DNA of 38,937 nt from Candidatus Woesearchaeota archaeon (lineage in GTDB: Archaea; Nanobdellota; Nanobdellia; Woesearchaeales; GW2011-AR4). Under the pieces are notes generated by a model. The model was not told where the DNA came from and searched no databases. It saw only the letters and a list, made by a program, of their open reading frames with translations. The stretch covers positions 1-38,937 of the forward strand of contig JACPJP010000022.1 of the NCBI GenBank assembly GCA_016187495.1. The letters run 5' to 3'. Below, in pieces: positions 32,598 through 33,427 of the stretch (position 1 is the first letter of the stretch; each line of letters begins with the position of its first letter). The translations under genes were made by a program, and so were the position numbers.

Positions 32598-32834
32598 TCT
32601 AATTCATTCAAGAAGAATAACTTTTTGGTTTCTCCTTTTCTCTCTGCAAAATAGAATGATTAAATAGTATTTAAAAGTATCGAAAAATTTTTTTAAATGT
32701 GTTATCCAGAAACTATTTCCCTACGGTGAATTTCTTCCAGATATGAAACTCACAAAGCACAACTTAATAGAAACAGTAAGGAAAAAGAATTGAGGATGGA
32801 CAACATACCAGGCAAGGAAAATAGTTAATAAACC

Positions 32835-33337
32835 GGCTTCATCCAAAAAATAAATTAACCGACTAATTCTATGAATAAATATGGGTAAGCCGAATATTCG
32901 GCTCAACCCACAAATAGACTCTATTCGCAATAGAGTTCTATTGCAAAAGTGGACAGAGATTCTTCTCTCAATTGCCCTTTTACTTCCGCCACCAACTCAA
33001 AAAAGTGATTCATGAGAAGAAGAGAAATGGCTATGCGGTTTATTGCCTATAATATACGAATTATTATAGGCATACAGATAGCAAGAGAGAAGAACATTCC
33101 TTTGTGGGTTAGAGCCTAATTCTGGAAATTTGTAAAGAAATGTTGGGGTGGAGTAGCTTTAGCTCTATGATTTTATAGCTATGAAACCGCTCCTCGCCCC
33201 GTAATGCAGGGCGAGTTCTACACGTTTACATACCAATAGATGCCGAGCAATTGGCTTGGCCTAGAATTTGCGGAGCAGATTGAATTATTTTTGATAGCCT
33301 TTATTTTTATGAATATATAGAATTATTGGATGAAGCC
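32835..33337. ncRNA. ~500-nt structured element with complementary termini (strand unknown)
   Basis: GGCTTCATCCAA(32835-32846)/TTGGATGAAGCC(33326-33337); TAATTCTAT(32865-32873)/ATAGAATTA(33317-33325); GGCTCAACCCACAAA(32900-32914)/TTTGTGGGTT(A)GAGCC(33102-33117); TTCTTCTCTC..TTGC/GCAAGAGAGAAGAA; local hairpins. Confidence 0.75.
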
Positions 33338-33427
33338 CCAAAAATTTTACCATAATCGCAGCAGTTGGTTTTATTATTTTACATCCTTATTTCTCCTTGC
33401 TTGATTTATTATATAGCTTATATAAAT

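Follow-up and report, generated by a model that had tools for sequence, protein, structure and literature searches.

MITEs, the internally deleted and non-autonomous insertion sequences of bacteria and archaea, keep both ends and have lost the transposase core through a single internal deletion. The REPs of bacteria are intergenic hairpins with stems of 5-13 bp and a GTAG tag, often arranged as inverted pairs; the hosts named for them belong to bacterial phyla only, and they are thought to be mobilised by RAYTs (PMC3733652). For Archaea, only TnpA of the IS200 type is recorded (PMC6006769). The locus described here has something of both kinds of element. It occupies positions 32835-33337 (503 nt) of a 38,937-nt contig of a Candidatus Woesearchaeota archaeon, the whole of which is referred to as the window. 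Judged by its alignment to related copies, this stretch is almost certainly what is left of an insertion sequence of IS5 type, non-autonomous and with a MITE-like internal deletion, and its 3′ untranslated region carries one copy of an independent, dispersed palindromic repeat.

A DNA search of 60 relatives found a near-complete copy of the insertion sequence, L009 (G000:C28), in the binned genome itself. The element (plus strand) matches L009 in two BLASTN pieces, over L009 positions 35-207 at 90% identity and 926-1237 at 78%, with about 718 bp (L009 208-925) absent between them; the matches cover the first 171 and the last 325 nt of the element, and start and stop at its complementary ends. 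The end points of the two pieces place the deletion junction at 33006-33012. To its left is a remnant of transposase codons 1-43 (32881-33009, plus strand), with a translated match 88% identical to residues 1-43 of a 316-aa transposase; to its right is a remnant of the C-terminal coding region with its stop codon (33012-33119, plus strand), at 78% DNA identity to L009 from 926 onwards. A protein match to the transposase over 32916-33116 needs read-through of two stops. What survives in the window copy is therefore some 43 codons of the N terminus, the end of the coding sequence for the C terminus, the part 3′ of the gene and both termini of the element; the deletion took out the catalytic core of the transposase. 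Such a copy could still be moved in trans by an intact enzyme. It is the single internally deleted copy known here, no second one with the same deletion having been found in the 60 relatives; in this, in being longer than is typical and in having no visible target duplication, it departs from described MITEs.

The ends themselves are GGCTTCATCCAA (32835-32846), which in other copies borders 9-bp target duplications, and TTGGATGAAGCC (33326-33337), read in the sequence; a second end pairing, TAATTCTAT with ATAGAATTA, is also present. Complementarity over 12 bp is by itself within chance, 55 of 500 dinucleotide-shuffled versions of the intergenic 1.1 kb containing a distant inverted repeat at least as long, so that homologous copies are needed to judge the ends. 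In the light of these, the complementary ends are the terminal inverted repeats of an insertion sequence, sites of transposase binding and cleavage and not the closing stem of an RNA. The preliminary description had favoured RNA readings and had named a non-autonomous element bounded by terminal inverted repeats as its last alternative; this last proves correct, and the readings it preferred do not (see below).

In L009 the extra middle DNA completes an intact open reading frame of 316 aa (L009 83-1033). The protein is a DDE transposase of the IS4/IS5 superfamily (PF01609, DDE_Tnp_1; E 1.1e-19, 71.4 bits against a cut-off of 23), and its best NCBIfam model is that of the IS5 family (transpos_IS5_2; E 5.7e-26, 91.7 bits, which is below the curated cut-off of 140). 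The insertion sequence resembles those of the IS5 family in its DDE transposase (about 316 aa), in its short terminal inverted repeats, which begin with GGCT, and in its 9-bp target duplication, a length that fits the IS903 group of that family. It differs from them in falling short of the NCBIfam cut-off and in the variable, hairpin-bearing 3′ untranslated part (roughly 70-220 nt) found in this lineage. As a separate observation, the region after the transposase stop codon varies in length among L009, L102, L150 and L167, up to about 200 nt, and holds unrelated, hairpin-rich sequences, as a site for cargo might; G251, very similar in its 5′ part, has just ~70 nt after the stop codon.

The same ends also occur in G024, G126, G085 (left end), G251 and L150, the last being a copy in a named Candidatus Woesearchaeota MAG, bounded by GGCTCC/GGAGCC. 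The transposases of G126 and G085 show 78-79% protein identity, G126 (79%) belonging to another family of the same order. Any similarity to the transposase, down to E 1e-10, was found in 41 of 292 genomes of the order; no viral copies were found.

Evidence of past mobility comes from these relatives. Terminal inverted repeats GGCTTCATCC/GGATGAAGCC, or close variants, are present in the window and in L009-L015, L102, L150, L156 and L167, and in three insertions the element is flanked by 9-bp target duplications: GTTTGCCGC (L010/L012) and TACAAATGC (L009/L014), both obtained by pairing left with right flanks, and TACAGCTTT (L102). The duplication TACAGCTTT is that of the complete G126 copy, which is bounded by inverted repeats GGCTCCATCCA/TGGATGGAGCC. 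In G024 the ends of the insertion sequence meet a number of different flanks, for the most part at the edges of contigs, which is the usual behaviour of a repeat in an assembly. At the window copy, with flanks ...AATAAACC and CCAAAAATT..., no target duplication is recognisable by eye, which suggests that the copy is old or that one flank has been lost or rearranged. L009 itself is a 1.4-kb contig (G000:C28, 1-1444) in which the left flank of one insertion appears to be joined to the right flank of another, and which is identical to pieces of G024. It is probably a collapsed repeat contig, and possibly a mis-binned one; given the joined flanks and the identity to G024, the sole complete copy attributed to the window's own genome may belong elsewhere.

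Every helix of the preliminary description that was checked is in the sequence and in its place. A 15-bp helix with a bulged A pairs approximately 32900-32914 with 33102-33117, and there are further hairpins ACTCTATT/AATAGAGT (32918-32936), CTCGCCC/GGGCGAG (33193-33215) and TGCCTATAATA/TATTATAGGCA; that of TGCCTATAATA is not kept in L102, the relative compared by eye. The partners of the 15-bp helix are the first and last transposase codons, which are ~900 nt apart in complete copies. Relatives with intact genes have for the most part preserved this complementarity, which may be either a coincidence of conserved codons or a regulatory pairing.

Two local hairpins lie in the 5′ coding end of the transposase. 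The first (GGGT A AGCCGA / TCGGCT CA ACCC, 32883-32909, plus strand) covers the start codon region; in the relatives' alignment 88.6% of its cells are paired (7 distinct relatives), but just a single compensatory change is seen, and 6 of its 10 pairs do not vary at all. The second (ACTCTATT-CGC-AATAGAGT, 32918-32936, plus strand), in codons 13-19, becomes AATCGGTT-CGT-AACCGAAT in relatives, with two pairs changed on both sides and 80% of cells paired. Across both hairpins and 8 relatives (7 distinct), 84.9% of pairs are kept, compared with 78.9% in shuffled and at most 45% in slid alignments. These figures, with three pairs changed on both sides, argue modestly that the hairpins are kept as structures, in which case they might damp translation of the transposase or act as DNA sites.

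The dispersed repeat, at 33193-33265 (plus strand), is a double hairpin: hairpin 1 (33193-33199/33209-33215), a linker, hairpin 2 (33242-33248/33254-33260) and a CTAGA tail. A covariance model (R1) was built from three sequences, copies were found with it in the family, and 29 were aligned; a second covariance model is referred to as R2. Among the 29 copies, 11 of the 14 pairs have changed on both sides, and the covariation score is 0.366, compared with 0.083 for shuffled and at most 0.048 for slid alignments, figures that lean towards the model used for the alignment. Hairpin 2 has been swapped wholesale between the window (GCCGAGC/GCTTGGC) and L009 (GCGACGC/GCGTCGC), most likely by compensated change since the two diverged. 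G-U makes up just 5 of 335 standard pairs (~1.5%), and G.A or A.G accounts for 39 of 45 non-standard cells, the majority of them at the centre of hairpin 2.

R2 has matches in 8 of the order's 292 genomes and in 3 of 285 from the phylum. Every one of these genomes belongs to the family of the window, and none has more than 13 matches. One copy stands alone in the window's own genome (L157, C22:35248-35321), ~37 nt past the stop codon of a 235-aa open reading frame. The copies are intergenic, with mixed gene orientation. Longer, four-hairpin forms occur in G009 and G016, and compact inverted pairs in G014 (L051, L066, L097 and L100; e.g., TAGGCGGCCCCATTG...GCGGCGCCTAA); forms similar to these pairs are found in G006 and G012, while the window copy is not of this kind. 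Within ~130 nt upstream of one copy (L077, G013:C140), CCCCTGCACTTAAGAGCGGAAGGTG occurs twice in ~100 nt and is perhaps another short repeat family. Outside the family, related insertion sequences (G251, G126 and L150) lack the repeat, and G126 and L150 have other sequences in its place; by this comparison its entry into the insertion sequence most likely predates the split between the window copy and L009.

These properties recall REPs and REPINs (PMC3733652, PMC6006769): short intergenic hairpins with stems of 5-7 bp, variable in sequence while remaining complementary; an unpaired tag at the foot; singletons, inverted pairs and clusters; and several copies per genome. The differences are in the host, which is archaeal, in the loops, which contain AATG or ATTG, and in the tag, which is CTAGA/CTAAA in place of GTAG. 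The foot of the repeat reads GCCTAGA/GCCTAAA (TCTAGGC/TTTAGGC on the opposite strand), without a GTAG or GT[AG]G tag. A search for a RAYT/TnpAREP gene flanked by repeats found no convincing repeat near any of 30 Y1-transposase loci (best E 0.025). Of the 36 family genomes, 19 have Y1 genes, the repeat-rich G013 having none, and all 12 Y1 proteins inspected have DHxH, as in IS200-type enzymes. A RAYT or other Y1 transposase was accordingly dropped as the mobiliser. Certain IS200-type Y1 transposases (DHLH; L122, L142, L125, L123 and L141, in G014, G022 and G007) are encoded by open frames of 190-241 aa and so exceed the median length reported for IS200 TnpA, which is 152 aa. Identity of the repeat with an integron attC site was also rejected, GTTRRRY/RYYYAAC boxes being absent as judged by eye.

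Having the layout of a REP without its tag or a RAYT, the repeat would be REP-like in its working at most, and is not classed here as a REP. It is real and probably undescribed, nothing relevant to such a repeat in DPANN archaea having been found in the literature. In our main reading it would behave as a REP-type DNA palindrome that hitch-hikes on this insertion sequence. A bolder and less probable possibility is that the 73-nt double hairpin represents a new, mobile family of palindromic repeats, the archaeal equivalent of REPs and REPINs within one Woesearchaeota-related family, spread without a RAYT by some other enzyme and now carried along by the IS5-type insertion sequence that it entered. 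While the relic is, with very high confidence, ordinary in itself, the repeat is of moderate interest and is where the value of the locus lies: it is a palindrome family of a DPANN-type lineage, multi-copy and covarying, for which neither an Rfam entry nor an evident mobilising enzyme was found, and it could help to test for repeated origins of REP-like elements.

A somewhat unlikely alternative is that 33193-33265 is not a REP-like DNA repeat and instead encodes a small structured RNA, either a regulatory RNA or a 3′ untranslated element. Its covarying stems and conserved unpaired linker, CACGTTTACATACCAATAnATGC, would suit such a role, as would the U-rich stretch downstream of many copies. 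The gene upstream is co-oriented in 16 of 29 copies, and in several lies 32-70 nt before the element; the remaining 13 are in the opposite orientation, a mixture that argues against an RNA and that led to a strict 3′ untranslated element being dropped. The scarcity of G-U pairs is likewise not in its favour, nor is the lack of any Rfam match to 33193-33265. The palindromic inverted pairs in G014, and the multi-hairpin forms with different flanks in G009 and G016, also fit an RNA poorly.

The near-absence of G-U intermediates and the replacement of whole stems might instead reflect template switching in quasi-palindromes at replication, which would keep the stems perfect without selection on either RNA or protein-bound DNA structure. 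Against this explanation, which we consider unlikely, the linker and tail are conserved as well, and the G.A mismatches, retained in many copies, have not been corrected.

A ~500-nt undescribed, structured non-coding RNA, proposed in the preliminary description, is very improbable for the element as a whole, although covarying structure does exist within it, in the form of the 73-nt dispersed repeat. The fold of 32820-33350 is certainly stabler than chance (z -6.2 on the plus strand and -7.2 on the minus strand, with none of 100 shuffles as stable), and several of the hairpins covary. Folding equally well on both strands favours inverted repeats in DNA over one RNA strand, however, and much of the element is transposase coding remnant and inverted repeats. 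Complete relatives have ~0.7 kb more inside the supposed fold, and the covarying hairpins are separate modules. The candidate large RNA gives way to a transposon relic, and the case illustrates how a nested RNA fold can be imitated by a combination of inverted repeats, hairpins in coding sequence and palindromic repeats.

That the element is a divergent RNase P or SRP RNA gene has next to no probability: the adjoining gene is indeed Pop5 (PF01900), the ends pair, and neither RNA was found in the incomplete genome, but an Rfam search of the window gave no family at threshold, other genomes of the family have an ordinary RNase P RNA, and what lies here is an insertion sequence that has suffered a deletion and has copies in other places. 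The Rfam matches in the region at E<=5 were weak and at chance level, with nothing convincing among them. The model for archaeal RNase P RNA (RF00373) detects this RNA in 32 of the 36 family genomes, including the same-genus G001, G003, G004 and G005, with E values of 1e-21 or better bar one fragment. The window's own genome (67% complete) gave no RNase P RNA match, and SRP RNA (RF01857) was found neither in the window nor in that genome; missing sequence is the simplest explanation. With these searches of window, genome and family, both identities were dropped. The position beside Pop5 is incidental, since three orthologous Pop5 loci of the same genus carry no copy of the element.

Beside the IS5-type relic, and outside it, 32698-32828 (plus strand) is a remnant of another insertion sequence, one whose transposase is of the rve type; it consists of the left end and the first ~28 codons with an in-frame TGA. 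It is 87-88% identical to several copies in G003, with near copies also in G005, and a complete copy of this insertion sequence (L092) encodes a 287-aa integrase-core protein. With this truncated neighbour next to the relic, the intergenic region is a small graveyard of mobile elements.
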